The notes beneath the pieces are model-generated. The model saw only the letters and a list, made by a program, of their open reading frames with translations, was not told where the DNA came from and ran no database searches. DNA of 64,000 nucleotides from Neocallimastix lanati (nom. inval.) (Eukaryota; Neocallimastigomycota; Neocallimastigomycetes; Neocallimastigales; Neocallimastigaceae): assembly GCA_016946835.1 (NCBI GenBank), contig JACVTC010000133.1:167001-231000 (forward strand). The letters run 5' to 3'. The position numbers and the translations under genes are program-made. This document shows positions 2,831-47,653 of this stretch, piece after piece. Every line of letters starts with the position of its first letter. The first letter of the stretch is position 1.

Positions 2831-3624
2831 TTTCTTTTATTTTATTTTATTTTTATTAATATTTTGATAATTTATAATATTTTATTTTATTATTTAATTT
2901 TATTTTATATTAATTATATTTATCATAAATATTAAAAAAAAAAAATTTTGAAGATTCAAATAAATAAATAAAATAAAGTTATGATTCATTATTATAGCCC
3001 AATAAATTTTAAGATATTTATTAAATTTTTAAAATTTTAATATGTTTAATTAAAAAAAAACTTTTTTTTTATATAAATTTATCATTCATATAATTATAAA
3101 TATTAAAGTTTTTTTTTTTCTTGAAACAGTTAAAAAAAAAAAAAACGGCAATTTATTTATTATTATTATTAATATTTAAATACCGCATATAATATATATT
3201 ATATTTTTTAAAAATATATAAATATACATTTTTTTTTTTTATTTTTTTAAACAATTATTGTATTTATTTGTATATAAATCTTTCTAATTTTATTTATTAA
3301 ATTATTAAATTTATATTTTTAAAAAGTTATTTTATTATAATAAAAATATTGAAAAATATAATAATAATACCATGAAATATTGTAAGTCATTATTTGATGA
3401 ATTTTATAATATTAAATTTGAAATTATAAAATTATATTTTAAATATATATATATGAATAAATAGAATAATAATAATAAATAATAATAATAATAAAAAGTA
3501 TTCAATTTTGATTTAATTTTTTTATAAATTAAAATTTAAAAATAAAAAAAAATTTTTTTATATGTTTTATAAAAATATAATATAATTTATATAGCATTGA
3601 AATCTGTTTTATTTTTAATTGTAG
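2831..3624. other. AT-rich 5' flank of the EEP-jacalin gene
   Basis: Homopolymer-rich. A possible first exon sits at 3372, where an ATG is followed ten bases later by a textbook GTAAGT donor. Its phase does not match the frame required by the acceptor TTGTAG at 3624, so I do not join them. The true start of the downstream gene is unresolved. Confidence 0.6.
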
Positions 3625-4987
3625 ATTATCAATAAATAAAATTAAATGTGAAAATGAAAAAAGATATAACAATTATTATAATTCCTACATACCAGGGAAC
3701 TTTACTGAAAATAATATAAGATATGACCAACCAAATTCTCAAACTTATGGTTCTTTCACTATTTTAAGTTATAATGTTGGTGGATTACCTGCTATTATTT
3801 CAAGTAGTTCTCCTGCTGAATATACCCATCAAATTAGTCCCAAATTAAATAAGTATGATATTGTTAACGTACAGGAAGATTTTGGTTATAATGATGAACT
3901 TACATCTATGCTTGATTTTCCATATCAAACTGAATTCTCTGGAAATGTTCCATTTGGTAATGGTTTAATGACTTTTTCAAAATTTCCATTATGTTTAACG
4001 ACTAAAATTGCTTGGGAAAAAACACATGGTTTCATTAGTGATGGTGCTGATCAAATGATTCCAAAGGGTTTCACCTTTGCTTCAGTAGAAATTAGACCAG
4101 GCTACTTTATTGATATTTATAATATACATACTGATGCTGATACTGATGAAGAATCACTTGCTGCTAGACGTTCTAACATGGCTCAACTTGCAGCTTATAT
4201 TAACACCAGATCTGCCGGCAAAGCAGTTATTGTTTTCGGTGATACTAATTCAAGATACACCAGAGAAGGAGATAACTTTGATGAATCCGTTTTAAAACCA
4301 TGTAATTTAAAGGATGCGTGGGTTCAAAATGTAATGGGAGGCGTTGCTCCACCAAAAGGAGAATCCCTTATGGTTGACCGTTTAGGACAAAAGGGTGAAG
4401 TTGTTGATAAAATTTGGTTCCGCAGTGGAAAGAATATTGAAATCAATGCAGCTACTTTTGAATTACTTCAAACAGAGTTTACAGATGCTCAAGGTAATCA
4501 ACTTTCAGATCATTATCCAATTACTTCTAGAATTGATTTTAAGTTAATTGAAAACTTCCATACAACAGATACATTTGGTGGTAAAGGTGGACAAGGATTC
4601 TCATTCCTTGAAAAAATTACTGATAATAGATTACCAATTAGTGTTACTATTTCATCAGGAGATAGAATTGATAGAGTTGGATTTACATATGTAGGAAGTG
4701 GACTTGTTACAGCAGGAGGAAATGGAGGTAAAGAACAAACTTATGTTTTCAAAGAAGGAGAGTACATCTCTTCTATGACTGTTTCTAAAGCTACAAAGAA
4801 TATCCTTAGTTCTAATCGTATTAGTTATATTAGTCTTGTTACCAATTTAGGTAATGTTATATCTGCTGGTAATTATAATGATGACTCGATGTATTTCAAA
4901 CCACCAGAGGGTTATGCTATCACTGGTTTTATTGGGTCTGCTGAAGATGAAATTGATAGAATTGGCTGTATCTATCAAAAATTATAA
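3625..4987 (+). CDS. EEP-fold hydrolase with C-terminal jacalin-like lectin domain (5' end uncertain)
   Basis: The frame is open from the acceptor at 3624 to TAA at 4987, about 453 residues; the first in-frame ATG is at 3908, but homology clearly starts upstream, at ILSYNVGGLP. The first two thirds have the DNase I-like/endonuclease-exonuclease-phosphatase signatures: SYNVGG, VQED with the metal-binding Glu, NIHTDAD with a catalytic His, GDTNSRY, and LSDHYPI with the terminal Asp-His. The last ~140 residues form a jacalin-like beta-prism: the FGGKGGQGF start, GGNGG, GEYISSM, a LVTNLGN strand and a GFIGSAEDEIDRIG end. The combination suggests a sugar-targeted phosphodiesterase or phosphatase (sphingomyelinase-like or nuclease-like). 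The substrate cannot be read from sequence. No signal peptide is visible in this exon; one could lie in a missing first exon. Codon use is markedly less AT-biased than the flanks, so the gene looks intact. Confidence 0.85.
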
Positions 4988-6194: not shown

Positions 6195-6672
6195 CTTATA
6201 TTTTTTCTTTTTAAATATACTTTTAGCTAATTTATGATTATTCAACAGAAACTTTTTAACATCTTAAAGCGCTTTATTAATTGAAAGAATTACAATCAGT
6301 CAAAAGATAAAAAGAAACAATTATTTATTTTAACAATATATACAAGTAATTTTGTATCAATAAATTTCTAACCCTTGAACAAATTTATAAATATTATATC
6401 AGTAATACCGGATAAAATCAATTATTTACAAAATCTAAAATCTATTAAATCATCAAGAACAATTATATATTTCAAGCTTTCAAATATTTAAAATATTTTT
6501 TATTTACTATTTAAAGGAAATTTACTTTTTCTTTTATTTTTTATTTTATTTTATTATATATATATATAAAAAAAAAAAAAAAAATTTTTTTTATCTATTT
6601 TTTTTATTATTTTTATTATTTTTTATTTTTTATTCTATTCTTATTTTATTTTATTTTTTAAGCTTTCTTGAA
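6195..6672. other. AT-rich gap between unknown gene and LINE
   Basis: Slightly mixed base composition from 6240 to 6440 on both strands but no convincing exon. From 6480 the DNA is T-rich simple sequence up to the LINE coding start. The 5' end of the LINE must lie in this stretch but has no visible boundary. Confidence 0.5.
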
Positions 6673-7977
6673 ATGAATAATACTTCTTCAAACTCAGCAA
6701 CTATACCTGTTTTGCGGCGTGGCCTTCGAAGATACGATATTCAGAATAAAGATTTCATTCTTATCTTTATTCATGATCTTCAATCATGGTCTGTTAGTAA
6801 ACTTTGGGAATTTCTTAGTAAACGTATTTCCAATTGCAATAAAATTGTTCATGGAATTACAAAAAAACACACACCTAATATGGAAAATTACTTTATTTTA
6901 AGGATAAACTATGATAAACCCACTTATTACCTAAATATTTTATTTCTTCTTACCCATTACCTTCCAATCTATAAAATTAATTGGATCCAAACCAACATAA
7001 TCAGAATTTTCAGTGAAGTTAAGAAATTTAACAACAAATTTTCTTCTTTTGAAACTAAATCAATGGTTAAAGATTTTCTTTATAGTAGTATTTACTCACC
7101 GTCTACTCAGTTCTTTAATCTTTGTGTCAATTGGAACATTAATGGATGGAGTGATGAAAATTGTGATGGTATTAGATACTTTAATGAAATTTTTAAACCT
7201 ATTTGCATTTGCCTGCAAGAGGTTGGTAATAGCCAATACCTTAATGTACATTCAAATAATTACCCATTTCTTTGTCATTATAATACAATTTTACGAAAAT
7301 CTAATCCAAATATACCCGGTATGAGAGGTCTTAGTATAAGTGTACATCGTTCATGTTCATTTTCTCCTGATCCTTTTGAATATAAGTATATCATTTCTGT
7401 CAACATTACTTCTTTTTGGAGAATTAAATGCACTATTGGTAATATTTATGTTCCTACGGTCACTCATAAGGAAGAAAGAAAGAAAGCCTTTTCAGAAATT
7501 ACTAATTGGATAAAGAAACATACTAATACACCTTCTATTCTTGTAGGTGACTTTAATATGCTAAATCCCAATTAGATAGTTTACTTAATAAATCATCTCA
7601 TAAGTGGTTCACTAAAAACTTATTAGGTCTCGAGTTCATATGGGCTCGGGATGGTAGATCGTCTTGTATTGATCATGTTTTATTTAATTGTAAAATGAAA
7701 GAATACATTAATAAGGTATCTGTTTGTAGTACATTCAATGATATATCTGACCACTTCCCTCTTATCCTTTCCTGTAAGAAAGATGACTCAGAAGGTTTTC
7801 GTGCTCCTACTCCTTCTAGAAGATTCAAATGGTCCCAACACATGTGTAAGGAAAAGCAAAATGAAATATTCTCAAGTAACTACTTCTCAATTCTTCTTAA
7901 TGAATTTGATGATAATGAAGAACTAAGTTCTAATGAAATGGTCAATAAATTTATAGAAACAGCTAATAAAAGTTGGT
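6673..7977 (+). pseudogene. LINE endonuclease region
   Basis: The first 300 codons (6673-7575) carry an uncharacterised N-terminal segment and then the endonuclease: CVNWNINGW with the first metal-binding Asn, CICLQEVGNSQ with the Glu, GNIYVPT, and LVGDFNM with Asp/Asn. After a one-base shift near 7561 the frame continues and includes the substrate-loop region and NDISDHFPLIL, the terminal Asp-His pair. All expected active-site residues of the AP-like endonuclease are therefore present, although split over two frames. The endonuclease nicks the target DNA that primes reverse transcription in this element class. Confidence 0.85.
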
Positions 7978-8736
7978 GATAAAGTTCATGCTAGGGTTCC
8001 TTGTGATCTTAAAGGCTCAGCTTTCCACTGCCCTTATTATATCAAGAAACTTTCTCATGAAAAACATGTTGCATTTAATAAAATCAAAAATTTTTCTTTA
8101 GGTTCTAATCTTGAAAAGCTTGATGAATTTTTAAATTTGTTTCGTGAATATAAAAATATATGTGCTAAAGTCTGGTTAATTAAGTTTTCTATTAAATTAA
8201 AACAATTTCATTAGTCAATAGAATCTGCATGTAATGATTTTCGTAATAAAAATGCTAGAAGTGCTTGGTTAAAATTAAAGAAGCTATCTCACCCTATGTA
8301 CTCTAATTCTATTTCGTCAAGTGTTTTAAAGGACAAGCAGGGTAACTTTTTATTTTCTTATTCGGATCAATTAAATCGATTTGCTGATAATTACAGTGAA
8401 CTAGCTTCTGATGTTACTCAACACAGTTTGGATTATGAATACTGGGTATGTTTATTTGGAACTAATCCTAATAATAAATCTTACTTGGGATATTAATGAT
8501 TCTATTACTATGGAAGAAATTCAAAACACTGTGCTTGAAATGAAAAATAATAAAGCTCCTGGACCCGATGGTATTCCGATTGAATTTTTTTTAAAGCCTT
8601 CTTTAGTAGATCTGATTTATCCAATAATCAAGATGATTCTTCAGTTGATCACTACTCTAAGTGTGCTAAATGTTTACTTTCATTATTTAACAAAATCTGG
8701 GATGGTGATTTCCCTGAAGAGTAGAATTCGGCTTCT

Positions 8737-10605
8737 ATAATATCAATTCCAAAAAAAGGAGATCTTTCGGATTGTAATAATTATCGTGGTATTTCTCTTA
8801 TAAATGTTGGCTTAAAAATTATTTCAAAGATTGTTACTAATAGAATTGCTAAATATGCCCTTGAACATAAATTTGTTAGACCTGAACAATTTGGATTTAG
8901 AAATAAAGAAGAATGCATAAGTTTATATATTTCAATTAGAGAGATATATCAAAGAAGAAAATTTCAAGGAAATTTTACTTATCTTACTTTTCTCGATCTT
9001 AAAAAAGCCTATGATTCAGTACCTATCTTTAATATTTTGACCAAATTATATAACTTAGGAATTAGAGATAAATGTCATCTGTTTTTAAAGAATCTTTATC
9101 TATCCTCTATAGCTCGTGCTTTTTTTAATGGTAATCTCTCAGAAGAATTTTCGATTAATCGTGGTGTTAGACAAGGATACCCTCTATCTTCTATTTTATT
9201 CAATTTGCTCATTAATGATGTACTGGATAATTGTAATAAGTATGGTGTATATTTAGATTCTCAATATTGTTGTGGTGGACTTTTTGCGGATGATATTGTT
9301 TTAGTTGCTCCATCTAAACAAGCTCATAAGAAAATTTTAAATAAAGTTCATGAATGGGCTATTAAAAATGAAATGACTTTTGGAATTAATAAGTGTGCTA
9401 CTCTTGTTGTAAAACCGATTAACTTTGTTAAACCGATAAACTATGAAGATCCATCTTTCTTTATTGGTAGTAACAAATTACCTAAAACTGACAACTATGC
9501 TTATCTTGGTATTCCTTTTGATGAATCTTTATCATTGAAACCTATACAATCCAAATTAAACAGTAATTTAAATGTCAAGTTAAATTTGTACTTTCGATTT
9601 CTTATTAATAGATCTATTCCTCTCCAATTGAAGAAATATGTTTTAATTTCGTTTATTCTTAGTCTTGTTATATATTATGCTCCTCTCTATGGTTCAAATA
9701 AGAGCAGATGTTCTAAAGCTCAAAAAATTATTATTAATAGAGGACTTTATTGGAGTTATGGATTTAAATCTCGCAATTCTTCTGTTAGTCTCTATGATAT
9801 TACTCGTGAATTGAGAATACCTCCCTTCAAACCCTCAAAAGCTAAAAAAGCAATTATTTACAAGGAGAATGATTTTGGATTTATTTCAGAAATCAGAAAC
9901 TTAAAATTTCAATATCATAAGTATCAAATGGGATTCTTTTGGATTTCACGAATTAGGTGTGGCTTTAAATTTGACATTAGTATTTCCATTAAAAGAAAAA
10001 TCGTCTCAGATGATTGCCTTAAATGTTGCTCATGTTGTGGTGTTAGTGTACCTAGCTTTTCTCACTGGATCTTTGCCTGTAAAGAATTGGAAAATTTCAA
10101 AAATAAATCTTTACCTTTTCTAGATGATCTCTTTTTGAAGTTTGCAATGATAATTGAACAAAAATCCTTGGATGTTTCTTTAGATTCAGAAAAGGATTAT
10201 GATAATAATATTTATTATTATATATTGAGTGCTCTTCTTAATGGGCGTTCAATATATTCAAAAATTAAAGTTAATGATGGGGAACAAAGACAATTAGTTG
10301 ACAACATTTTTAAACAAAGTTCAACTTCGTCAACTGTTCCGTATTTTGTGGGGATTGCGGAGTTTCTAACAAACGTAATACCATTAATTTGTCGATCTTT
10401 TAGTTTGATGATGAAATGGTATTCCGTTGAATCTACCGTTACCAAGAGCGTTGACGTCGAAACGATAAGGCATTGATTTTCACCACCAGATACAGATTCG
10501 ATTGATAACACTAATACTGAAATTATTACTCGCAATAATGGGCGTGGTGTTATTATCGAGGAATGGGAAAAGTTAGTGGCTATTGCTTCTAACGCACTTT
10601 TATAA
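8737..10605 (+). pseudogene. LINE reverse transcriptase and C-terminal zinc motif
   Basis: The frame is open from about 8725 to a TGA at 10474 and then continues, in the same frame, to TAA at 10605. Landmarks: NNYRGISLINVGLKI, RPEQFGFRNKEEC, LTFLDLKKAYDSVP (motif A with its Asp), GVRQGYPLSSILFNLLIND (motif B), GGLFADDIVL (motif C with the catalytic Asp pair), then thumb sequence and CSCCG...HWIFAC, the C-terminal zinc motif. Motif 0/1 (NNKAPGPDGIP) lies just upstream, at about 8545, in another frame. Catalytic residues are intact. The ~43 codons after the TGA look like coding sequence, so the TGA is probably a recent C-to-T change. Confidence 0.88.
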
Positions 10606-15639: not shown

Positions 15640-18600
15640 TTATTTTGGTATTAGTGTAGGTTCATCCTCTAATTCTTCTGTCACAACTTCTATAATACTA
15701 TTAATATCATCAGAATTAAGTTCTTCTTCTTCTTCATCATCATACTTTCTACTCCTAGTGATGGTAACTGTTTTTGTTGAGGTTGATGTTGAAGTTGGAA
15801 TTTCTACTTCTGAGGTAGTCATTTTATACTCTATCACTTCAGTGGCTATATATTCTGGTTCTTCTGTCACAACTTCTATAATACCATTAATATCATCAGA
15901 ATTAAGTTCTTCTTCTTCTTCTTCATCATCATACTTTCTACTCCTAGTGATGGTAACTGTTTTTGTTGAGGTTGATGTTGAAGTTGGAATTTCTACTTCT
16001 GAGGTAGTCATTTTATACTCTATCACTTCAGTGGCTATATATTCTGGTTCTTCTGTCACAACTTCTATAATACTATTAATATCATCAGAATTAAGTTCTT
16101 CTTCTTCTTCTTCATCATCATACTTTCTACTCCTAGTGATGGTAACTGTTTTTGTTGAGGTTGATGTTGAAGTTGGAATTTCTACTTCTGAGGTAGTCAT
16201 TTTATACTCTATCACTTCAGTGGCTATATATTCTGGTTCTTCTGTCACAACTTCTATAATACCATTAATATCATCAGAATTAAGTTCTTCTTCTTCTTCT
16301 TCATCATCATACTTTCTACTCCTAGTGATGGTAACTGTTTTTGTTGAGGTTGATGTTGAAGTTGGAATTTCTACTTCTGAGGTAGTCATTTTATACTCTA
16401 TCACTTCAGTGGCTATATATTCTGGTTCTTCTGTCACAACTTCTATAATACCATTAATATCATCAGAATTAGGTTCTTCTTCCTCTTCATCATCATACTT
16501 TTCACTTCTAGTAAGTGTTTCCATTGGTTCTGACGTTACAGAAGAAATTTCAATTTGTGATGTAATAGTATTCATTATATCTTCCTCCTCCTTAATTTTC
16601 TTTGAATCTAAGAAGTTTTTAAGTTTAAGAAAATGTTTATCAGAAATGCATATATTTTCTGCTTCACTTGTAGAATTAAATGGATAGAAAAAATGATTAT
16701 ATTCCACAGTATCAGCAAAATTATTGTCATACCAAAGATAGAAATGATCATTATTAATGGTTATTCTTTTAGAGAAATCATCCTTCTCTAATATAATAGT
16801 TTTATTTTGAAAGTATTTATCGTAAACAAGGGTAATCATATCTTTATTAATAGGATGAATATAGAATTTTTTATTATTACTACTTACTAAGTTGACAAAA
16901 TAAACCTCTTCCAAGAAAATAGCTACATCATTAAAGAAGACAGTAGTATCCATATTAAAATCAATATTATACTTTACTAAATCATCGGTTTCATATTGTT
17001 TACCACAATATAAGATGGCTTCAATTTTTAAAACACTTGAATTAGTATCTGAGAGATAACAATCATAGATTTTTTTTGTTGTTGTAGAATTTTCACTATC
17101 TTCAACATGATCAATATATCTCACGAAAAAGTCTTCAAAATATTTATATTTTTCCTTATCGTAGAAAGAAATCTGCTTTTTACAATTAGAGGCTGGAGAT
17201 AAAGTAGGAGTAGCAGTATTAATAGTCGTCGTCGTTGTAATCGTTGAACTTGGAATATATTTATCAAATGAGCATTGACCGAATTCACTTTGACAACCAT
17301 TTTCAACATAGCAAAGAGGAGAAAGATTATCCTCGGAATATTCAATACATTGACCATCCTTGGTACAACATCCTTTATCACATTTAATATCACCTGAGGA
17401 ATGACCACAGCCATTATAAATATTTAGTGGTGAAAAAATAGTGTACTTACCGTTATTTGCAAAACGGTTAGGCGTATCTTCAGAACCCAAATTATTGATA
17501 ACACCTTTTAAAGAAAGTTCTATTAATTTTTCTTTCATGAGTTCGTAAGTCCATTGAATTTCTGGATATTCTGACATAATGGTTGCAGCAATACCTGTTA
17601 CAATAGGAGTAGCACAAGACGTTCCACGTTTCCAATCATAACCTTTCTTGTTATTATTTGTAGCAAAATATACTTGTCCAGGAGCATGAATATCTATACA
17701 TTTTCCATAATTAGAATAAGAAGCAGCATTGTAGGCCTCTTCAATAAAATCATTTCTTACATCTCCAGTGGCACCAACAGCAATGACTCCATCGTATTCA
17801 GAGTAATAATTAAAGCTAGTTTTAATGTTTGTACAACCATTACGACCTTCGTTACCAGAAGCAACAATAAGAATAAATCCTGCATTAATTAATTCAGTAA
17901 TTTTTTCTTGAGTGACTTTACTATAATTAGTCCAATTTCCTCTTGAAAGATTAATCACTGTTTTATGAGGTGTACCGTTTTGTTTTATATAATCAAATGC
18001 TGCCAAAGTATCACTTAATTGTAAACTTGTAGAAAGCATATGAATATTGGCCTTTTTAGCGACACCAAATATAGAACCAGCAGATATTGAGGCGACCATC
18101 ACCCCATGATCTGGATAGGTGTCATCAAAGGTACAAAAGTTCTTATTATCTTCCGTTACTGGATTGATTTTGGAACTTCTGATCACTGCATCACAAACAA
18201 CGACACGTTTATCCTCTTTCTCTTCATAGTAATTAAAATCGGTAAGATTTAAATCAATACCAGCATCAATAAGATAAATATCAATACCTTTTCCAGCAGA
18301 AGCAGGATAATAATAATTATTATCATATTTCTTAGTATTATCCTTAATATATTTTGCTTGTGATATTAATGATAAATGGGAAAAAGAATTAGTAAAAAGA
18401 GTTTTTTGTTCTTGAACATTAACATCAGTCCAATTAGTTTCCTTTTTAATATACTGTTGATCATAATAATGATTAGATATTTCTTCATCAGCAACTTGAT
18501 ATTTCATTTCTACAGACTTTTCACAATCAATTACATTAGGTAATTTCATTACTTCTTCGACAATATCATCAGAAAGATAGACATTAATAGCATAATAATT

Positions 18601-19098
18601 GGCGACAGGACAAATATGATTAATTAAATTAGAATCAATATAAATGTATTCTTCGTCGTCATTGTTACTTAAACCATTTTCAATTTCGAATTCTGTTGAA
18701 TTAAAGTTACGTTTATAATTATTGCTTTTTGAATTAAAGTTAAGTTTATAATTATTGCTTTTTGGTCTATTTGTATTATTAAATATATAATTAATATTTT
18801 TATTTATATTATTACGTTTTTTCAATGAAATGTTTTCAAGTTCATTTAATTTTTCATCTTTCTCCCCATTTTCTAATATATAAGTATCTGCATTATCAAT
18901 AATAATTTCATATATATCATTCATTCTATCATTGACTAAATTATCAATAGCATTTTGAATTTCCTCACTTTCTTTATCATATTCTTTATCATTTTCACTT
19001 CTTCGAATAGATACTATATAATAATTGTTTTCTGCATAAACTTTAATAATAAGTTCAAAAATTTCAATTATAATGAAAAATAATGAATAATAATTCAT
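15640..19098 (-). CDS. Secreted subtilisin-like serine protease with CBM18 and repeat tail
   Basis: A single exon of 1152 residues. Residues 1-22 form a signal peptide ending KVYA. About 25-205 is a propeptide with inhibitor-I9-like strands (YYIVSIRR; YYAINVYLSDDIVEEVMKLP). The S8 catalytic domain spans ~240-555, with Asp278 (IYLIDAGID), His331 (PDHGVMVAS), the oxyanion Asn416 (ASGNEG) and Ser494 (GTSCATPIV). Residues ~562-610 have the hevein/CBM18 cysteine pattern (YNGCGHSSGD, CDKGCCTKDGQC, NGCQSEFGQC). A Thr-rich linker leads to an unassigned ~220-residue domain and then about five copies of a 63-residue acidic/Thr-Ser repeat. All triad residues are present, so activity is likely, with chitin or glycan binding anchoring the enzyme. 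The S8 fold and CBM18 calls are family knowledge; the middle domain is unknown. No transmembrane or GPI signal is seen at the C terminus. Confidence 0.93.
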   Translation of the reverse strand: MNYYSLFFIIIEIFELIIKVYAENNYYIVSIRRSENDKEYDKESEEIQNAIDNLVNDRMNDIYEIIIDNADTYILENGEKDEKLNELENISLKKRNNINKNINYIFNNTNRPKSNNYKLNFNSKSNNYKRNFNSTEFEIENGLSNNDDEEYIYIDSNLINHICPVANYYAINVYLSDDIVEEVMKLPNVIDCEKSVEMKYQVADEEISNHYYDQQYIKKETNWTDVNVQEQKTLFTNSFSHLSLISQAKYIKDNTKKYDNNYYYPASAGKGIDIYLIDAGIDLNLTDFNYYEEKEDKRVVVCDAVIRSSKINPVTEDNKNFCTFDDTYPDHGVMVASISAGSIFGVAKKANIHMLSTSLQLSDTLAAFDYIKQNGTPHKTVINLSRGNWTNYSKVTQEKITELINAGFILIVASGNEGRNGCTNIKTSFNYYSEYDGVIAVGATGDVRNDFIEEAYNAASYSNYGKCIDIHAPGQVYFATNNNKKGYDWKRGTSCATPIVTGIAATIMSEYPEIQWTYELMKEKLIELSLKGVINNLGSEDTPNRFANNGKYTIFSPLNIYNGCGHSSGDIKCDKGCCTKDGQCIEYSEDNLSPLCYVENGCQSEFGQCSFDKYIPSSTITTTTTINTATPTLSPASNCKKQISFYDKEKYKYFEDFFVRYIDHVEDSENSTTTKKIYDCYLSDTNSSVLKIEAILYCGKQYETDDLVKYNIDFNMDTTVFFNDVAIFLEEVYFVNLVSSNNKKFYIHPINKDMITLVYDKYFQNKTIILEKDDFSKRITINNDHFYLWYDNNFADTVEYNHFFYPFNSTSEAENICISDKHFLKLKNFLDSKKIKEEEDIMNTITSQIEISSVTSEPMETLTRSEKYDDEEEEEPNSDDINGIIEVVTEEPEYIATEVIEYKMTTSEVEIPTSTSTSTKTVTITRSRKYDDEEEEEELNSDDINGIIEVVTEEPEYIATEVIEYKMTTSEVEIPTSTSTSTKTVTITRSRKYDDEEEEEELNSDDINSIIEVVTEEPEYIATEVIEYKMTTSEVEIPTSTSTSTKTVTITRSRKYDDEEEEEELNSDDINGIIEVVTEEPEYIATEVIEYKMTTSEVEIPTSTSTSTKTVTITRSRKYDDEEEEELNSDDINSIIEVVTEELEDEPTLIPK
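15680..16510 (-). repeat. 189-bp in-frame coding tandem repeat of the subtilisin
   Basis: The motif CTACTCCTAGTGATGGTAAC recurs on the plus strand at 189-bp intervals (about 15750, 15939, 16128 and 16317), with a diverged fifth unit ending near 16510. Inner copies differ at only a handful of bases, including one codon for Gly or Ser after DDIN and the number of GAA codons in the acidic run. The unit encodes DDEEEEEELNSDDI, then IIEVVTEEPEYIATEVIEYK, then a Thr/Ser stretch likely to be O-glycosylated. Such near-identity suggests recent expansion or conversion, and array length should vary between strains. Confidence 0.95.
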
Positions 19099-19210
19099 TT
19101 TAATATATATTTATATATATTATATTTTTTTTTTACTTATTAATAATATTATTTTTTATATATATTCTAATTTATTAATTTCTTTCTATTTTCTTTTTTT
19201 TTTTTCTTTT

Positions 19211-22627: not shown

Positions 22628-23180
22628 TTGTTATTTCATAATTATTATTAGTACTATATACTATTTATAATATATATAATATATATTTTATATATTTATA
22701 TTTTTTTTATTATTTTTTTTTTTTTGAAGCACTTATCATATTAATTATTATTATTATTATTTTTATTCTTTTTATAACATGTAACTACTACAAAAATCAA
22801 TATATATGTTACATAAGATGTTTTAGAGGAAAATGTTTCATATTCATCACATTTTCCTATATCATTTACATCATTATTATGTAATTTGTTATTACATAAT
22901 TATTGTTAGTACTATATATACTATTTATAACATATATAGTATATATATTTATATTATTTTTATTATTATTATTATTTTTCTTTTTTTTTTTGAAATATTT
23001 ATCTTATTAATTATTATTATTATTTTTTTTATTCTTTTTACAGCATGTAACTATGAGAATTAGGAGAATAATCACTACGACTACTACTACAAAAATCAAT
23101 TTATATGTTTTATAAGACGTTTTAGAAGAAGTTTCATATTCAACACATTTTCCTATATCATTTACATCATTATTGAATTC
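22628..23180 (-). repeat. Tandem duplication covering the LRR gene's last exon
   Basis: Copy 1 (about 22628-22882) and copy 2 (about 22886-23180) share, in order, GTTATTNCATAATTATTNTTAGTACTATATA, the TTTATAAN block, a T-rich stretch, CTTTTTANANCATGTAACTA, ACTACAAAAATCAAT and TTTTCCTATATCATTTACATCATTATT. Copy 2 contains the live last exon of the LRR gene. Copy 1 lacks about 30 bp of the membrane-segment coding sequence. Confidence 0.8.
22728..22870 (-). pseudogene. Duplicate, shortened last exon of the LRR gene
   Basis: It matches the C-terminal exon of the neighbouring LRR gene: the segment encoding NNDVNDIGK and the basic tail are recognisable on the minus strand. The region coding for the hydrophobic core is missing and the frame is not kept. 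It lies downstream of the functional stop codon, so it would be at most 3' UTR. Confidence 0.7.
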
Positions 23181-24341
23181 ATTTCCTGATAAGCATCTAA
23201 AATAATATTAATAGCATTATTATATAATATTTAATAAAATTTTAAATTTTATTTATTTTTACTAGTAAAATAATAAATACTTTTTAAAAGTATATATACA
23301 TAAATAATTATATTATTTATTAATTCAAAATAAAACTTTATTTCTATAATTATTTAAATTCATTTGTTTCATAAAAACTTACAAAGTATTGATTTTAGTA
23401 TTATTTGGAATATCTAAATTTCCAGATAATTCGTTATTACGAATATCTCTATATAATTATATAAAGATCAATATATATATGAAAAAAAAAAAAAAAAATT
23501 CATGAGATTATATTTTTTGTTATTATTAAACTATTTTTACATATATCTATAACTACATATATATATAAATAAAAAATTCTATGAAATAAATGAATTATTG
23601 CTTTTTAAAATATTATTTTTTAAACTTGTAATAATTTATTATATTATTTTAAAAAGTCATTTTAAAATATTTTTTTTATATATATTATATTTTAAATTTA
23701 TTTATTATAAAAACTTACAAATGTTTAAGATTAGAATTTTTTGGAATAACTAATTCTCCTGATAATTTATTGTTACTAACATCTCTATATAATTGAGTAT
23801 ATTTATTAATAAATAATTTATATAATATTATATTTATATTTTTAGAATTATAAACTTTATAATATCTTATATATATAGAATTTAAGAATTTTTTTTTAAA
23901 TATTTATTTTAAATCCAACTATTAATAAATCTTACAATATTTGTAATGTTGAATTTTCTGGAATATTTAATTGTCCTGTTAATTCATTATCATAAACATG
24001 TCTAATAATTTACCAAATCCATTTATTTATAATAAAAAATTAATCATATAATATAAAATTTTATTCATTAGTTTAATAAATATAATGTTCCGTTCCAAGA
24101 TGAAATTTTTATTATCATATTTTATTTTAAATTAATTTATTATTAAAACTTACAATTCTTCTAATTTAGAATTATTTGGAATAACTAATTCTCCTGTTAA
24201 TTTATTTTTTCCAACATCCCTATTTAATAATAAAAAAATCAAAAATATTTTTAAATAAATTTTTTTAGAATTATATTTCCATTTTTGGAAATATTAATTT
24301 TTAATATATATATAAATTTATATATATAAATTGAATTAAAA

Positions 24342-24377
<36 letters not shown>

Positions 24378-26689
24378 GAGATTTAAATCTTATTTGATAA
24401 ATAAAACTTACAAAAATGTTAATTTTGAATTTTCTGGGATATTTAATTTTCCTGAAAATTGATTATTTGGAATATCTCTAATTTATTTGTACAGAATAAA
24501 AATATATATATATGTATATATATATGTATTTTTATTAATAAATTTTTTAATAAATATTTATAAATATTGATTATTAATTTCCAATATTTATGTTATCTAT
24601 TTATATATAACTATTAATTTAACAATAAAATTATTATTTCAATATTTATTTTAAATATTAGTTATTAAACTTACAACTTTATTAATTCTGAATTTTCTGG
24701 AATAACTAATTCTCCTGTTAACTTATTATCAGCAACAGATCTAGTAATTAAATATATTTATTTGAATTATGAAAAAAAAAAATAAATTTTTTTTATAAAT
24801 AAATTTTCAAAAAAAAAGATATTTATTTATTTAAGAATTATTTAATTATAATAGCTTATTTTTAAAAGTAAATACTTATATATATTTTTATTTAAAATAA
24901 AAATTTAATTTATACATTTATTTAAATTAATTAGTGATTAAACTTACAAAATTTTTAACTTTGAATCTTTTGGAATATTTAAGTTTCCCGTAAGCATATT
25001 ACTGTAAATATGTCTAATAATTGAATATATTTAAAAAAAAAAAAAAAATTAATATTCATTTATAAATTTCATATATACATATATATATTATTTATATTTA
25101 TGAATTATTTGCTTTCAATAATATAATATTTCCATATAAAAATTAATATATATTTTAAAATTAAAATAATAATAATAATATTTATAACAATTTTTTGTTT
25201 TATTTTGTTTTACTTTTTATATTTATTTATATTTATTTAATTATAAAACTTACAATTCTTCTAAATTAGAATTTTCTGGAATGACTAAATCTCCTGATAA
25301 ACTATTTCTTCTTGCATCTCTAATAATAATAATAATAATTAAAATAATAATAAATATATATATATATATATATTAAAATTAAAAACTTTTTTTTTTTCAA
25401 ATATTTATAATTATTTCCAAAAATTTAAATTTCATTAAATATATTTATTTAAACCTAATTATTTTTAAAACTTACAATTTCTTAAGTTGGGAATTTTTTG
25501 GAATATTTAATTTTCCTGTTAATTTATTAAAATGAACATTCCTAATAATCGAATATATTATTCGTATAAATATTTAATATTTACATTAATATTTTATTTG
25601 TTTTTATTTGTTTCTTCTTTAAAGCTATTTATATTTATGAATTATTTATAGATTTATATATATTTAAATATTTGATTATAACACTTACAATTCTTCTAAT
25701 TTTGAATTCTCTGGAATGTCTAAATTTCCTGTATATCTATTATTAGAAATATTTCTAAAATAATAAAAGTATTTATTATATATATATTTATAAATAAAAC
25801 TTGCAAATATATATATATATTTTTTCTTGAAATACTTATATATATAGAATTTTATTTATATATATTCCGATTTTTCATATTTATAATTTATAGTTTATTA
25901 TATATATTTTAATAAAAAAATTTATCAAAATTTTTATTTAATTCCATTTGTCAACAAGACTTACAAATACTTCAATGTGGAATTACTTGGAATAACTAAA
26001 TCTCCTTGTAATAGATTTTTACTAATATCTCTAATATTTGAATAATATTTATATATTTATATAAAAAAGATTTTTCATTAATAAAGTTATTTATAAATTA
26101 TATCTATATTTTTTTATTTTTTATTTTTAATATATATTTTATATTTATGTAAAACAAATCTCAAAATATAAATAATAAATATAATAAAATAAATTAACAT
26201 TAATTTTAATTTCTTAATATTTACAACACTTCCAGATTTTGGAAATTATCTACAAATGTTTGTATTGTAAGGTTTTCCTCTTGTTTTAATTCAGACTCTA
26301 AATGTCTATATAATTAAATATATATATACATATATATTAATAATTATAATTAATATTAATTTAAAATATAAAATAATTTTATAGATATATATATTTTAGT
26401 GAAATTTTAAATTGTTAGTTAAATTTTTTTTTTTAATATTATATTTAAAAAACTATCCTATATTCATTATTTAATATTATTATTATAATTGTTATAAATT
26501 TTACAATTTAATAATATGGTTTTGACTTTCATCGCATTCGACTTTATCATTTTTACAACAGTCGTCCCCATAATTTTTAACTTTTTCAACATCAATTAAA
26601 TTTTTAAGTTTTTTGCATTCCTCAACAGGTACGGAATAAGTTAATGCAAAAATATTGGAAAAAACTAAAAATAATGTGTAAAATTTCAT
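23007..26689 (-). CDS. Leucine-rich-repeat single-pass membrane protein, fourteen exons
   Basis: My model: 26689-26505, 26305-26225, then eleven 66-bp exons at 26030-25965, 25754-25689, 25541-25476, 25319-25254, 25013-24948, 24740-24675, 24477-24412, 24219-24154, 24001-23936, 23784-23719 and 23448-23383, then 23196-23007. Total 1182 nt, 393 residues. Every intron interrupts a Leu codon in phase 2, and most donors are GTAAGT. Residues 1-19 are a signal peptide (FYTLFLVFSNIFALTYS), followed by a Cys-containing cap (EECKKLKNL, DDCCKNDKVEC). Each 66-bp exon encodes one 22-residue LRR of the form LDVxxNxLTGxLxIPxNSxLxx. The last exon gives a cap with Cys (GKCVEYE), a membrane helix (LIFVVVVVVIILLILIVTCC) and a short Lys/Asn tail. 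It resembles a cell-surface recognition receptor with no cytoplasmic kinase; its ligand is unknown. The gene looks fully intact. Confidence 0.92.
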
Positions 26690-26986
26690 TCTTCTTTTTT
26701 TAATTTTAGTTAATATAAAATATTATTTATTATTTATTTTTTTTATTTTTACTTTTTTTTTTTTTTTATAATTTCGTTTTGAAAAAACTAAAATGTATTT
26801 TTTTTATACTTAAAAATACTATTTAAGAAAAAATTTTTGAAGAAATAAAAATTTATTATAAACTCCAACTATTTATATTTTTTAAATATTGAAAATAAAA
26901 AATTAAAAAATAAAAAAAAAAAAAAAAAAAAAAAAAATCGAATCAATCGAAAAATCTACAACCAAATTATAATTTTCATTTAATCA

Positions 26987-27026
<40 letters not shown>

Positions 27027-27400
27027 TTCTATTTAATAGACTTTAAATAATGAATTCTTTTATTAAATTTTACAATTTGTTGAAAATAAAGTTTATTATA
27101 GTTAATTATTAAGTTAAAATATATTTAAAATTAGTTAATATAAAATATTATTTATTATTTATTTTTTTTATTTTTACTTTTTTTTTTTTTATAATTTCGT
27201 TTTGAAAAAACTAAGATGTATTTTTTTTATACTTAAAAATATTATTTAAGAAAAGATTTTTGAAGAAATAAAAATTTATTATAAACTTCAACTATTTATA
27301 TTTTTTAAATATTGAAAATAAAAAATTAAAAAATAAAAAAAAAAAAAAAAATCGAATTAATCGAAAAATCTACAACCAAATTATAATTTTCATTTAATCA

Positions 27401-42425: not shown

Positions 42426-44254
42426 TAATACATTCATTATATAAATATTCTTTAACTTACCTATTATTATATTTTAATATTTACACAATTTTTTTTTTTT
42501 TATTATTATTAATTTATATTTTTTTATATATATAATAATTTAAAAAAATGCTTTTTTTATTTAAGAAATTTAATCCAATAAAACTTATTTTTTTGATATA
42601 TTTTAGTTGTTAGATTTTCAAACAAAAATTCCATTCATCAAAATTACAAAAAAATAAAAATTTCGTACAAAATTATAGTTAATATATAATAAAATTTTAT
42701 TTGATATTAATTAAATCAAAAAGTCTTTCCTATAAAAGGAAATTAAAAAAAAATACATCAATACTAATAATTACTAAAATACTAATAATTAAAAAAATTA
42801 TTTTATAAAAAAAAGAAGAAAGAAATTAAAAATAAAAAAAAATAGTTTTTTTTAGAAAGAATTTTTTTTAATAAAAAAAGGAAAGTTTTATAATTTTGTA
42901 ATATCTAGTTTTGTAAATATAACAAAGGGAGGTTATATTTATAAAAAAGAGAACACTAAAATAAAATTTTCTTGTTTATTTTTTATTTATTAAATTTAGT
43001 ATTTTAAATAAAAATAAATTTTGTTTTAAAATTTTATATTAAATAAAATTTTCATTAAAAAAATCTTTTGTACATTACTTAGTATCAATAGTTGGGCTTA
43101 TCTAAAATTGGTAATAATTATTAATTTTTAATATAAAAAGGAAAAATAAAAACAAAAACAAAAGCAAAAACAAACAAACTAAAAAAAAAAAAAAAAAAAA
43201 AAGGACAGAATTAAAATGTCCTAATGACGTGTAATTAATATATTAAATATTTCTAATCCTAATCCTTAAAGCAATAGTTTAATAATATAAAAGTATGTTA
43301 AATTATTGTTATGTGTTTAATTACTTAGTACATTATACTACATAATTAAATGTAAAATATTTCTATTTGGTAGTATTTTTATGCAGTGTAACGTTAAATA
43401 TTACCTATAATGTTAAACTATATAATTATAAATAATATTAAATAATATATTTTTAAATAAATAGGACTTTCTTAATGTAAAAGCAATAAAATAAATAAAT
43501 AATGTAATATAGATATTATTTCTGATTTTAAGTGTTATTGAAGAAAAAATGTCTAAAAAAAAATTTTTTATAAAAAAAATAAAGAATATTCCATTATTTC
43601 ATTTTAATTTAAATTTAAAGATTGAGTTAATTATTATTTAATTAATATAAGATATAAAAATTTAAAATTCTATATAATTAAATATAATTAACTCAATCTT
43701 TAAATTTAAATTAATCTTTACATTTTTTAAAAATTTTACAATACTTTTTTTTTTAAAAAAGGAAAAATTAAATTCAAAAATGAATATTCTGTAGTTTAAT
43801 AATACTTTTTTATTATATAAAATATTTTTAATACATTAAGTATGTTTTCATTTAATGTTTCATTAAATTTAATAATAAATATATGAATATATATATTTTT
43901 AAATTTAAAAAATTTCATATTTTCTTCACTTCTAATTTATTTTTTTTTTCATTTATTTTTATCTCTATTTATTTTTTTATAATTATACTTATAATTAAGA
44001 ATTTTAATGACATTTAAACCATTATATATACTTCAAGATACTTCAAAAATAGAGCAATAGATATATATATATATTTTTCATTTTAATTAAAGTTCATTGT
44101 GTTATAATTACATTTTAATAATCATATTCATAATCATATTCATAACCATAATAATAATTGTAATTTAAATATAAACAATTAAATTATTTTTTTTTTAAAA
44201 AAAAAAAAATAAATAAATTAATAAAAAAAAAGATAAATAAAAAAAAAGATAAAA
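40575..44254. other. Long AT-rich intergenic stretch
   Basis: No exon found. Holds an A52-class run at about 42141-42192, (ATTT)n at 42398-42424 and an A24 run at 43179-43202. A few mixed patches (for example 41440-41600 and 43200-43400) do not yield a sustained frame. Confidence 0.6.
43606..43712. repeat. Inverted repeat, perfect 29-bp arms
   Basis: AATTTAAATTTAAAGATTGA plus GTTAATTAT at 43606-43634, exact reverse complement at 43684-43712, with a 49-nt AT loop. Possibly a tiny MITE. Confidence 0.95.
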
Positions 44255-46817
44255 ATGAATAAAAAAATAAATTTCCAAGAAAGTATTAATATAATAATAA
44301 ATAGTAAAAATGTTAAGGAATTAAAACAAAATCTAATAGAAAATGGTTTTCAATTAAAAGATTTAAAAAATATAAATAAGGATAATTTAAAAGGTTATAA
44401 TGTTCAAGGCTTTGATATATTAATTCATTTTATTGAAAACAATGCAACTCAAGAAGTAGTTCAATATATTATTATTAATGGAAAATACACAAATTTAAAT
44501 TATGTAAATATTTATAATATTAATAATAAAAACTACATAAAGACACCGTTATCTTCTGCATTGGAAATAAATAACCTTTCCTTATCTAATTTTTTAATAG
44601 AAAATGGTGCCACTCTCGAATATATTCCATTGAATCTTTTAGTTCAATCTATTAACAATGAAAATTATAAATTTATTTTTCAAAGTCACCAAATTCATAT
44701 TAAGAAAAAACTATTAAAAGCTATTATAAAAAATGGAAATAAAAATTATGCTTTAAAAGAAATTTTTAATGATAAACCGGAAAGTAAACAATTAATTAAT
44801 AGATCTATTTATAAAACAGCAATAAAAAGTAAAAACTATGAGGCTTTAACTATTTTATATAATAATGATTCAAGAGAAAGAAAATATATATTTAATGATT
44901 TTAGTGAAATATTTAAACCACCACCCCCTTTTGATAATGAGATGCTCAATGAAACAAATGAATATTATCCAAATGAAAAAGATAAATTAGAACTTATAGA
45001 AAGGCTTAAAAATTCAGAATTAGAATTCTCTGTGAATAACATTTTTATAAATAGTTTAAATAATCAAGAAAATCTTATTAAATTAATTCAAAATAATAAA
45101 CTAAATGATTTTGAAGATTATGTCAACAAAAATCCTGTGATAATAACAGAATTTAGATACATGGAAAATACTGGCATTGATAAGGATATTTTAAGTTATG
45201 CAATTGAACATCATGTTTCGCTTGACTTTTTAAAATTTCTTATACAAAAATGTCTTGAAGAAAAACCTGATTTTATCGAATATAATCGAAACTATGAAGA
45301 CATGTTTTACACTGCAATCTCGAGAAATAATTTTAATGCAGCGGATTATATATTGGATCAATATAAAGATTCCGGTAAAACCTACAATTATATGTTTTCT
45401 AATCTTTATTGTTCATTTGATCCTCATTTACTAAATGATAAAAATCTTGAGTATTTCATAGAAACCCCAATTCCTCATGATTGTAGTACAAATGAATTTT
45501 TATCCATAGATAGCTTAGTAGAAAATAATGAATTAGAAATTTTAAGAAAAATTTTCAAGTATTACGAGAATGAAAAAAATATAACAAATGAAAGTGATAA
45601 AATATCAATAAATTTTTCACTATATAAAGAAGCTATTTATCATGATCATTTGGAAATGGTAAACTTTTTATCTGAACATGATGATCGAAAAAAAGAGGAT
45701 ATTTTAGACACTATATTTCAAATTGTTGATGGAATGAATAGAGCACAAAAGCAAAAATTTTTATATAATATTAAAAATGGTAAAATAACTTTACCATCGG
45801 TTGACTATCTCGATCATTTTTTAAATAATTTAAATGAAAACCAAAATATATGGAAAGCTATAGTTAAAAAAATAGAAAATAATAGTATTTCTGAATTAGA
45901 TGACTATCTTCAAGAAAAAAATATTTCCTTATCCTGTTTTCATAAAGATATATTAATATATGCTATTGAAAACAATTCATCTTTTGAAATGATTCGATAT
46001 CTACTCTCCCATTATCCATCATTAAATTTTATTTCTGATAGAAGAACACCCCTTACTTGTGCTATCTCCCATAACCATTTTGATATAGCAGAATTATTAA
46101 TAAAACATGGGGCAGATATTCATTACAATTACGACTCAGAACCCTTTGGTTATATTTTTGAAAATGTTATTTGTTATACTATCGATAAAAACCTATTAAA
46201 TAAGAAAAATTTAAAATTTATTTTGAATTATGAAATTGAGTTCATTCCAAAAATTATTTCTCTTCTTATTTCGAGTCACGAAGAGAGTCATAGAAAAATA
46301 TTAAATGAATTGTTAAATAATTACGTTATGGATAATCATTTTATAATAAAATTACTTTCATATTATCATAACGCAACACCATTATCAAATTTTCAATTGC
46401 AAGAAATGACTTTAAAAGAAAAACAAAAAATTTCTAAGAATTGGTATACTTATGCCTTTTATGACAACGGTAACAGAGAAAATATTGAATTGCTTTTAAG
46501 ATATGATAGTAATGAATCTGAACTAATGTCAGATACTAATAACAAGGAAGGAAATTCGGATGGTGAATTGGGTCAATCTATATTATCAAGCATACTATGC
46601 CATTTTCTGAAAGAAAATAATTATAATATCATTGAAGAGGTATTAAAATCTAATATATTTCATTCTAAAAAATTCAATTTAAAAAGATTTCTTTCAAACT
46701 TATTTGATATTGAATATAAAGAACTAGCTAATCAAGAAAGTGATGAAGATGATATTGATGATATTGATGAAATTGAAGATATTGATGATGATAATAATGA
46801 TAATGATAATAATAATG

Positions 46818-46907
<90 letters not shown>

Positions 46908-47653
46908 GTGATGATGATGATGATGATGATGTTAACCATAATGTAAATATTAATGAGGATGATGATGATGTTAATGATAATGTAAATGTTAATGATGAAA
47001 ATGATGAAGATGATGTTAATAATCATGTAAATGTTAATGATAATGATAATGTTAATGATAATGTTAATGATAATGTAAATACTAATGATGATGTAAATTT
47101 TAATGATAATAATGATAATATAAATGAATTTTATATAGAAAAAATTCGTAATAAATCCAATTTCAAAAATTTTGATCTATTAAAAATATTTTTAGATGGA
47201 TTAATAATAAATAATTACATTGATTTTAAAATTACGAATAATGATTTTGAAGATATATTATTATTACTTTTACGTGAAAAATGTCCATTTGATTTATTGA
47301 TATCATTTATTCAAGATTCATTCAAAAATGATACTTTAGACCTTACTAAAGTTAACTTCGAAATCATTTTAAGGGAATTGACGGATGCGGTTAATTCTTT
47401 CGCTTCAAGTCATTCTGAAATAATTAAAATATTTATTTATGAATACTTTCATCATAAAGATTTTAATATAAAATACATTAATATTGAAAAATCTGTAGCA
47501 ATTCTGTGCCCTCTGGAGGATAATATTTCAAATTTGAACTATTTTATTCATATTCTAATTCAATGTCATCAATTAAGTATTAAGGATTCTATGAATGATA
47601 TTTCATTACTTTTAAAAGAATTAGATTGTTTAGATCTAGTAAATAATATCTAA
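44255..47653 (+). CDS. Large ankyrin-repeat protein with acidic Asn-rich insert
   Basis: A single exon of 1132 residues from ATG 44255, preceded by AAAAA context. Ankyrin repeats occur in groups: TPLSSALEINNLSLSNFLIE followed by NGATLEYI (~95-120), DILSYAIEHHVSLDFLKFLI (~310), and DILIYAIENNSSFEMIRYLL leading into RTPLTCAISHNHFDIAELLI and KHGADIHYN (~565-630). Between are less conserved helical pairs of the same style. At ~825-960 lies an intrinsically disordered insert: acidic DDID repeats, about 30 Asn codons (AAT tract at 46813-46905), Asp runs and a degenerate (N-D/V-N-V)n array. The helical part resumes afterwards to the C terminus. Ankyrin proteins are protein-binding scaffolds; the partner is unknown. 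There is no signal peptide or membrane segment. The Asn tract is probably length-variable. Confidence 0.9.
46813..46905 (+). repeat. Coding (AAT)n tract
   Basis: Around thirty near-perfect AAT codons (poly-Asn) inside the ankyrin gene, flanked by GAT-rich acidic repeats. The AAT tract is the same microsatellite motif that occurs in non-coding DNA at 33.5 and 52.4 kb. Confidence 0.95.

Follow-up and report, generated by a model that had tools for sequence, protein, structure and literature searches.

The 64,000-nucleotide stretch of Neocallimastix lanati DNA analyzed here (contig JACVTC010000133.1, positions 167,001 to 231,000; hereafter, the window) carries on its minus strand a leucine-rich repeat (LRR) gene in which 11 successive exons of exactly 66 bp encode the repeats. 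Arrays of such exons, coding for predicted LRR surface proteins, form a multigene family in the same genome. As read from genomic DNA, the family has a regular exon anatomy, its members differ in exon number and in last exon, and exon pairs have been duplicated and lost with the reading frame kept. The interpretation we favor, and hold to be probable if not secure, is that the window gene encodes a single-pass surface protein of a family whose 66-bp phase-2 exon arrays turn over, whose solenoids bind ligands at the surface, and whose SH3-tailed paralogs signal. A curved LRR ectodomain would then be assembled from interchangeable 66-bp phase-2 exons, set between a first exon supplying a signal peptide and an N-terminal cap (N-cap) and a last exon supplying a C-terminal cap (C-cap), a membrane helix, and the tail. 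Recombination among similar exon-intron units would lengthen or shorten the arrays, variable residues of the concave face would bind ligands at the cell surface, and paralogs with SH3-like tails could signal directly. The window protein, given its 12-residue tail, would need a partner or serve as a binder or adhesin.

The window gene runs from an ATG at 26689 to a stop codon ending at 23007, and its 14 predicted exons join into one open frame of 393 residues. The first exon (185 bp, 26505..26689) holds the ATG, a signal-peptide-like start, and the N-terminal Cys cap, as judged from the spliced frame, hydropathy, and related first exons. The second (81 bp, 26225..26305, placed by the spliced frame) starts the solenoid with 27 residues and is not a 22-residue unit. 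Splice sites, frame, and profile define the 11 LRR exons, which lie in order at 25965..26030 (LDISKNLLQGDLVIPSNSTLKY), 25689..25754, 25476..25541, 25254..25319, 24948..25013, 24675..24740, 24412..24477, 24154..24219, 23936..24001, 23719..23784, and 23383..23448. The last exon (190 bp with stop, 23007..23196), placed by spliced frame and hydropathy, encodes the C-terminal Cys cap, the membrane helix, and the tail CCKKNKKNNNNN. The 13 introns, without exception phase 2 and GT-AG, measure 147 to 270 nt and have a GC content of 6 to 12% each; pooled, exons have 23.3% GC versus 8.6% for introns. Each of them interrupts a Leu codon (TT|A or TT|G), including introns 1 and 2 upstream of the array (TT|A). 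Thus, a 66-bp exon starts with the last base of a Leu codon, continues through 21 codons, and ends two bases into the following one.

Within the array, every exon is flanked by AG and GTAAG sites, with a TAG acceptor throughout (11/11) and a GTAAGT donor in all cases (10/11) except one GTAAGA (1/11). Equal length, phase-2 borders on both sides, and one repeat per exon likewise hold for 11/11 exons. The initial annotation, made from the letters and a list of open reading frames, had described 11 phase-2 exons of 66 bp that cut the same Leu codon and encode one 22-residue LRR each, and both the splice sites and the 393-residue frame bear this out. An LRR profile run against six-frame translations of the window returned the 11 exons at expect values (E) of 1.8e-11 to 8.9e-14, which is circular for these exons themselves, as the profile was built from their repeats. 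The next segment matched at E 2.5; thus, the window holds no twelfth LRR exon and no second array. A degenerate exon-plus-donor pattern matched 6/11 exons and nowhere else in the window, with 0 matches in 100 shuffles.

In the predicted protein, Pfam recognized LRR_1 (55.3 bits), LRR_4 (53.4), and LRR_6 (33.9), all over cut-off, and the closest solved structure is the BRI1 ectodomain (E 1.5e-32). The repeats follow the consensus LxVxxNxLxGxLxIPxNSxLxx. Positions 1, 6, 10, 12, 14, and 15 (6/22) are invariant across the 11 repeats, and the most variable positions are 4, 22, 7, and 5; from known LRR structure, positions 4, 5, and 7 are expected on or beside the concave-face strand. Cys residues stand at 25, 44, 45, and 52 in the N-cap and at 332 and 348 in the C-cap, and there are six N-glycosylation sequons. 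The sole stretch with a 19-residue mean hydropathy above 1.6 lies within residues 357 to 388 (up to 3.77, by hydropathy only), with a predicted membrane helix at about residues 363 to 381 and a tail of 12 residues (CCKKNKKNNNNN) that contains no Pfam domain. Regarding the signal peptide, Cys caps, and single C-terminal helix proposed initially, the caps and helix are supported by frame and hydropathy, while the start resembles a signal peptide by eye and no N-terminal 19-residue segment exceeds a mean hydropathy of 1.6. Pfam detected neither a kinase nor a ROC-COR domain in the 393-residue product or in 11 scanned frames from other loci. No SH3-like domain was found after the membrane helix of the window protein, where just the short tail remains. 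On these sequence features, the anatomy is probably that of a surface binding protein.

Relatives were sought in the 199,045,447-bp assembly (762 contigs). A 34-place exon-plus-donor pattern with one mismatch allowed gave 56 genome matches versus 0 for the reversed control pattern. Searching with the first exon of the window gene yielded 28 places at E ≤ 1, including its own, and 20 at E ≤ 0.01, six of which cluster on contig C445. We examined 27 loci, window included, with exon counts that come from a profile exon caller, are approximate, and exclude low-scoring calls outside arrays. First-exon places not examined were C445:225381 (just its first exon lies in L020) and C700, together with weaker ones at C85, C532, C577 (two), C190, C69, and C445:1869571. 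At least three array exons were present at 18/27 loci. The initial annotation had suggested counting exons in paralogs; across these 18 same-genome loci, the count varies from 3 to 26. Beside the 11 array exons of the window gene, there are 26 at C742 (26/26 called at 66 bp and phase 2), 24 at C1, 13 to 14 and 6 to 7 at two C93 loci, 13 at C554 (L014), 9 at C64, 8 to 9 and 9 at two C621 loci, 8 at C434, 7 at C38, 6 at C268 (L013), and 3 at C761. Five loci on C445 have 12, 10, 8, 6, and 3, the 6 being counted from 2.8 kb examined. In the C1 gene, one exon encodes a C-cap followed directly by another N-cap, so that a single protein may contain two LRR domains.

Outside the 18 are C543:952 kb (one good exon), C632, C212 (two), C257, and C68, as well as C312, C543:335 kb, and C759, which were examined for SH3 ends. 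The C68 locus (L017), a weak match, was rejected as an LRR gene. Among six more first-exon places, L033 and L034 carry 66-bp arrays, L029 and L030 just weak exon calls (none of 66 bp), and L031 and L032 no array exons. On the minus strand of L032, at about 45 to 1085 counted from the 5' end, a first exon of the Cys-cap kind stands ahead of a frame that is rich in Ser and Gly and hydrophobic at its end. No LRR array was found after this exon, so the cap exon may be a shuffled unit in its own right. Scans for close relatives and exact exon-plus-donor patterns found none in viral and prokaryote contigs, collections that are not fungal and so say nothing about other fungi.

With exon length and phase left free, 142/175 called exons from 17 loci measured 66 bp, and 166/175 began in phase 2 and had lengths that are multiples of three. 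Such calls are favored by the profile, whose source exons were 66 bp long, and a few of the 175 are low-scoring and lie outside arrays. The 33 calls of other length comprised 14 of 60 bp, 5 of 99 bp, and others including 63 and 72 bp, with 27/33 being multiples of three. By eye, the 60-bp exons carry a two-residue deletion and the 99-bp exons an 11-residue insertion. In a set of 112 exons, a mild positional prior gave 66 bp for 100/112 and phase 2-2 for 108/112; without a prior, the figures were 97/112 and 106/112 at a 25-nt margin and 80/112 and 93/112 at a 40-nt margin, where many acceptors were picked inside the exon. Identical exon length, as emphasized by the initial annotation, is thus a strong family tendency but not a rule, given paralogs with exons of 60, 63, 72, and 99 bp.

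Array size usually changes by a unit of two exons. At C445:228163 (L035), an alignment of exons 4 and 5 and their introns with exons 6 and 7 and theirs shows 98.7% identity across 559 columns, compared with 56 to 64% by the same measure for single neighboring exon-intron units, a pair that catches array growth nearly in the act. Conversely, two exons of L018 in the C445 cluster, 4 and 5, have no counterpart in its tandem paralog L020, which has at that site a long AAT-type microsatellite between similar intron ends. Gain or loss of these exons, which are in phase 2 and have lengths divisible by three, keeps the reading frame. The proposal that repeats could be gained or lost by exon duplication or deletion without frame loss is therefore realized in genomic DNA, in the L035 pair and the L020 loss.

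Traces of the same unit occur elsewhere. Exons 3 to 13 of C554 (L014) alternate between two exon types, and the identity of their intron flanks is 81.4% at even and 62.2% at odd lag (14/10000 permutations as extreme). A weaker even-lag excess, in exons and not introns, is present at C742 (54/10000), one C93 locus (212/10000), and L018 on C445 (320/10000); C1 has none (5791/10000). The C268 and C554 genes, which may be paralogs or alleles, share 96 to 100% identity in exons 1 and 2 and 89% in exon 3, with 6 versus 13 array exons. At C761, exons 1 and 3 with their flanks are near copies (88.5% of aligned bases, 80% counting gaps) that share a GTTAGT donor.

The last exon differs between members. 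Genes on C445, C268, C554, and C93 end in a plain membrane helix and a short basic tail, while the last exon at C38 encodes an N-rich tail of about 600 residues with a PPSY motif. Three genes, two on C621 (L021 and L028) and one on C434 (L024), end in a membrane helix followed by an SH3-like domain. Against the SH3_1 cut-off of 22.9 bits, the C621 genes score above (26.8 and 26.0) and the C434 gene below (20.3); the C434 exon is 79% identical to that of the first C621 gene. These tails in relatives make signaling plausible for part of the family. Intronless frames on C312 and C543 also combine a membrane helix with a clear C-terminal SH3 domain, and their LRR matches fall below cut-off. They lie at L025 (304-1536, plus strand) and L026 (204-1580, minus strand), with one membrane helix each and SH3 scores of 36.5 and 35.4 bits. 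On domain content, these weak-LRR frames are a second, putative form of LRR-membrane-SH3 protein.

Several findings weigh against the favored interpretation or against parts of it. Exon pairs do not account for every array change: there is a seven-exon difference between C268 and C554, and the loss at C434 was apparently of just one exon. The window array itself has a weak two-exon trace, at 601/10000 permutations in exons and 2728/10000 in introns. The nearest relatives of the window gene by first exon, at C543 and C761 (the latter being the second nearest), are reduced arrays with odd donors. The last exon of the window gene has its best match elsewhere in the genome at E 4.6e-4 and 45% identity, and no close relative of it was found genome-wide besides its damaged tandem copy. 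Finally, in three close locus pairs, 9/37 nonsynonymous changes fall at 4/22 concave positions, which is no concentration, and ratios of nonsynonymous to synonymous rates (dN/dS) are about 0.5, 1.1, and 2.2, from few changes.

Three related readings are not adopted. Positive selection on the concave face is not claimed: mean entropy over 93 family exons was 2.82 bits at positions 2, 4, 5, and 7 versus 2.23 at loop positions (a set that leaves out L012, L013, near-duplicates, low-scoring exons, and the window), and this agrees with such selection, but the substitutions in the three close pairs disagree. A two-exon period in the window, seen as alternating ELVIP- and KLNIP-type repeats, had a runs probability of 0.024 but was picked after looking, so it serves as a hint only; permutations gave 0.046 for nucleotides and 0.22 for residues, a stricter alignment 0.060 for exons, and introns gave nothing. 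A four-exon block duplication in the window was unsupported (0.19 and 0.11). As a separate observation, L024 positions 2182-2700 in the C434 SH3 gene correspond to exon 3 of the C621 paralog but have no donor in place, and an unrelated open frame follows; an exon seems to have dropped out here with the frame kept.

The main rival is that these proteins are adhesins or wall-anchored binders, with the LRR surface holding plant fiber, microbes, or sister cells and no signaling involved. A 12-residue tail devoid of domains, as in the window protein, suits such a role, as does the C64 gene (L022), which by eye ends in a hydrophobic stretch like a glycosylphosphatidylinositol signal in place of a membrane helix and tail. 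In the available text of PMC12421816, one of the gut-fungal proteins listed carries two CBM10 domains beside an LRR; a role of LRRs in the secreted fiber-binding machinery is therefore conceivable too. However, signaling or trafficking fits the three paralogs with an SH3-like domain and the one with a PPSY tail better than pure adhesion does, and we regard a purely adhesive role as unlikely.

Less probable still is that diversity arises by alternative splicing, one gene yielding many receptors through skipping or choice of 66-bp exons; this would be compatible with the favored interpretation. None of the LRR exons in the window gene would shift the frame if skipped, and multiple splice variants are described for the 72-bp phase-2 LRR exons of brown algal ROCO genes in the available text of PMC11378527. 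The uniform GTAAGT/GTAAGA donors and TAG acceptors, however, make no window exon look weak. We think it quite improbable that AT-rich repetitive introns simply recombine, with arrays expanding and decaying neutrally and the window copy lacking any important function: C543 and C761 look decayed, L020 has lost exons, and a damaged last-exon copy and tandem repeats surround the window gene, but all 14 of its exons are open with GT-AG introns, and the invariant repeat positions beside widely varying ones point to purifying selection on the repeat frame.

The exon-array principle itself is known; lineage, unit length, and protein type set the present case apart. Plant-type LRRs have 24 residues, and plant LRR kinases often contain 72-bp phase-2 LRR exons. 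The fungal proteins resemble plant BRI1, SERK, and TOO MANY MOUTHS in their LRR ectodomain (BRI1 being the best PDB match), Cys caps, and single helix. Plant LRR receptor-like kinases carry a kinase, whereas none was present in the window gene or in the other frames scanned; short-tailed plant LRR receptors need a co-receptor kinase. The gonadotropin receptor is a seven-helix protein. Compared with it, the fungal genes have a variable exon number and one helix. Vertebrate gonadotropin receptor ectodomains are nonetheless built of similar-sized single-LRR phase-2 exons, as cited in the available text of PMC11378527.

That same text describes brown algal LRR-ROC-COR (ROCO) genes with 72-bp phase-2 exons of one LRR each. 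These candidate immune receptors share with the fungal genes one LRR per exon, phase 2, and variable exon number, but they have intracellular GTPase domains, while the fungal genes have a signal-peptide-like start and a helix. In Tetrahymena, LRR genes contain arrays of 90-bp phase-2 exons in variable number, for which unequal crossing over was proposed, and the authors state in the accessible part of the article that they knew of no other eukaryote showing this degree of uniformity (PMC6564038). Tandem equal exons, phase-2 introns, variable exon number, and a nearby element resembling a long interspersed nuclear element (LINE) are common to both systems. Tetrahymena, however, is a ciliate with 90-bp/30-residue units and genomes that mostly hold >1,000 LRR genes according to that text, compared with 66-bp/22-residue units and 18 loci found in the fungus, and the fungal first and last exons suggest a secreted, membrane-anchored protein. 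Exon gain and loss among its sister genes suggest that the fungus enlarges its recognition proteins in a way similar to plants, brown algae, and ciliates. The recurrence of a one-repeat, one-phase-2-exon design in a further eukaryotic lineage would argue strongly for convergent evolution of repeat receptors.

Fungi have been described as without, or nearly without, extracellular LRR recognition receptors in the available texts of PMC2939053 and PMC9119436. The former (Soanes and Talbot 2010) retained after curation five genes in 4/49 fungi, one of them a chytrid, and its main text contains no mention of Neocallimast-, Piromyces, or anaerobic. With LRRs and a single membrane helix, the window protein falls within the definition of an LRR receptor given there. 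Neither "leucine" nor "LRR" occurs in the main text of the articles on the gut-fungal membrane proteome (PMC5168858) and dating (PMC6712302). Our search, which lay outside subscription papers and genome-portal annotations, found no published account of this LRR family or of a fungal one-LRR-per-exon array. Members are presumably annotated individually in genome portals as LRR ("L domain-like") proteins. A wider reading, which we offer tentatively and with more doubt than belief, is that a rapidly evolving set of surface LRR receptors, including an LRR-membrane-SH3 class, exists in anaerobic gut fungi. Gain and loss of 66-bp phase-2 exons, often in pairs, would remodel their recognition surfaces, and the set would be an independently evolved fungal counterpart of the plant and brown algal arrays. 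If true, this would place receptor arrays in a kingdom reported to be nearly devoid of LRR surface receptors. At least 18 exon-array LRR loci, some SH3-tailed, make LRR sensing of bacteria, plant fiber, or kin testable in gut fungi.

Additional features surround the window gene. Its 3' end is tandemly duplicated (22628-22831 versus 22886-23130, 70 to 90% identical in pieces), the repeat taking in part of the last exon and the sequence beyond it. The outer, damaged copy of the 3' part of the last exon (22744..22890, minus strand) retains a 52-residue open frame, but its hydrophobic stretch is shortened and the acceptor AG is missing from the corresponding place. In the 5' flank, 26715-26942 and 27138-27365 are 89% identical and 423 bp apart, with more copies visible by eye up to 28000. 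A LINE-like element with several frames lies at 6439-10476 (RVT_1 at 1.1e-36; endonuclease match of 23.0 bits versus a cut-off of 24.5), and a protein much like it, by eye, occurs downstream of an LRR paralog on C445 (L018 7726-9901).

Abundant CBM10 dockerins and very low GC are a mark of Neocallimastigomycota. Of 1440 first-look candidates for CBM10-type dockerins (PF02013) in this genome, 150 were scored and all 150 were above cut-off, compared with 0/14 control genomes; GC in the window is 10 to 30% per 2 kb. Together, these values mark the source as most likely a gut-dwelling anaerobic fungus. Other genes of the window include a fusion of an endonuclease/exonuclease/phosphatase-family domain with a jacalin lectin domain (3581-4987) and a subtilisin-like protease (Peptidase_S8, 15640-19110) that contains a Cys-rich segment and whose C-terminus, by eye, consists of five nearly identical acidic/Ser-Thr repeats. 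An ankyrin protein of 1138 residues (44237-47653) has a long Asn tract and Asp-Asn-Val repeats.

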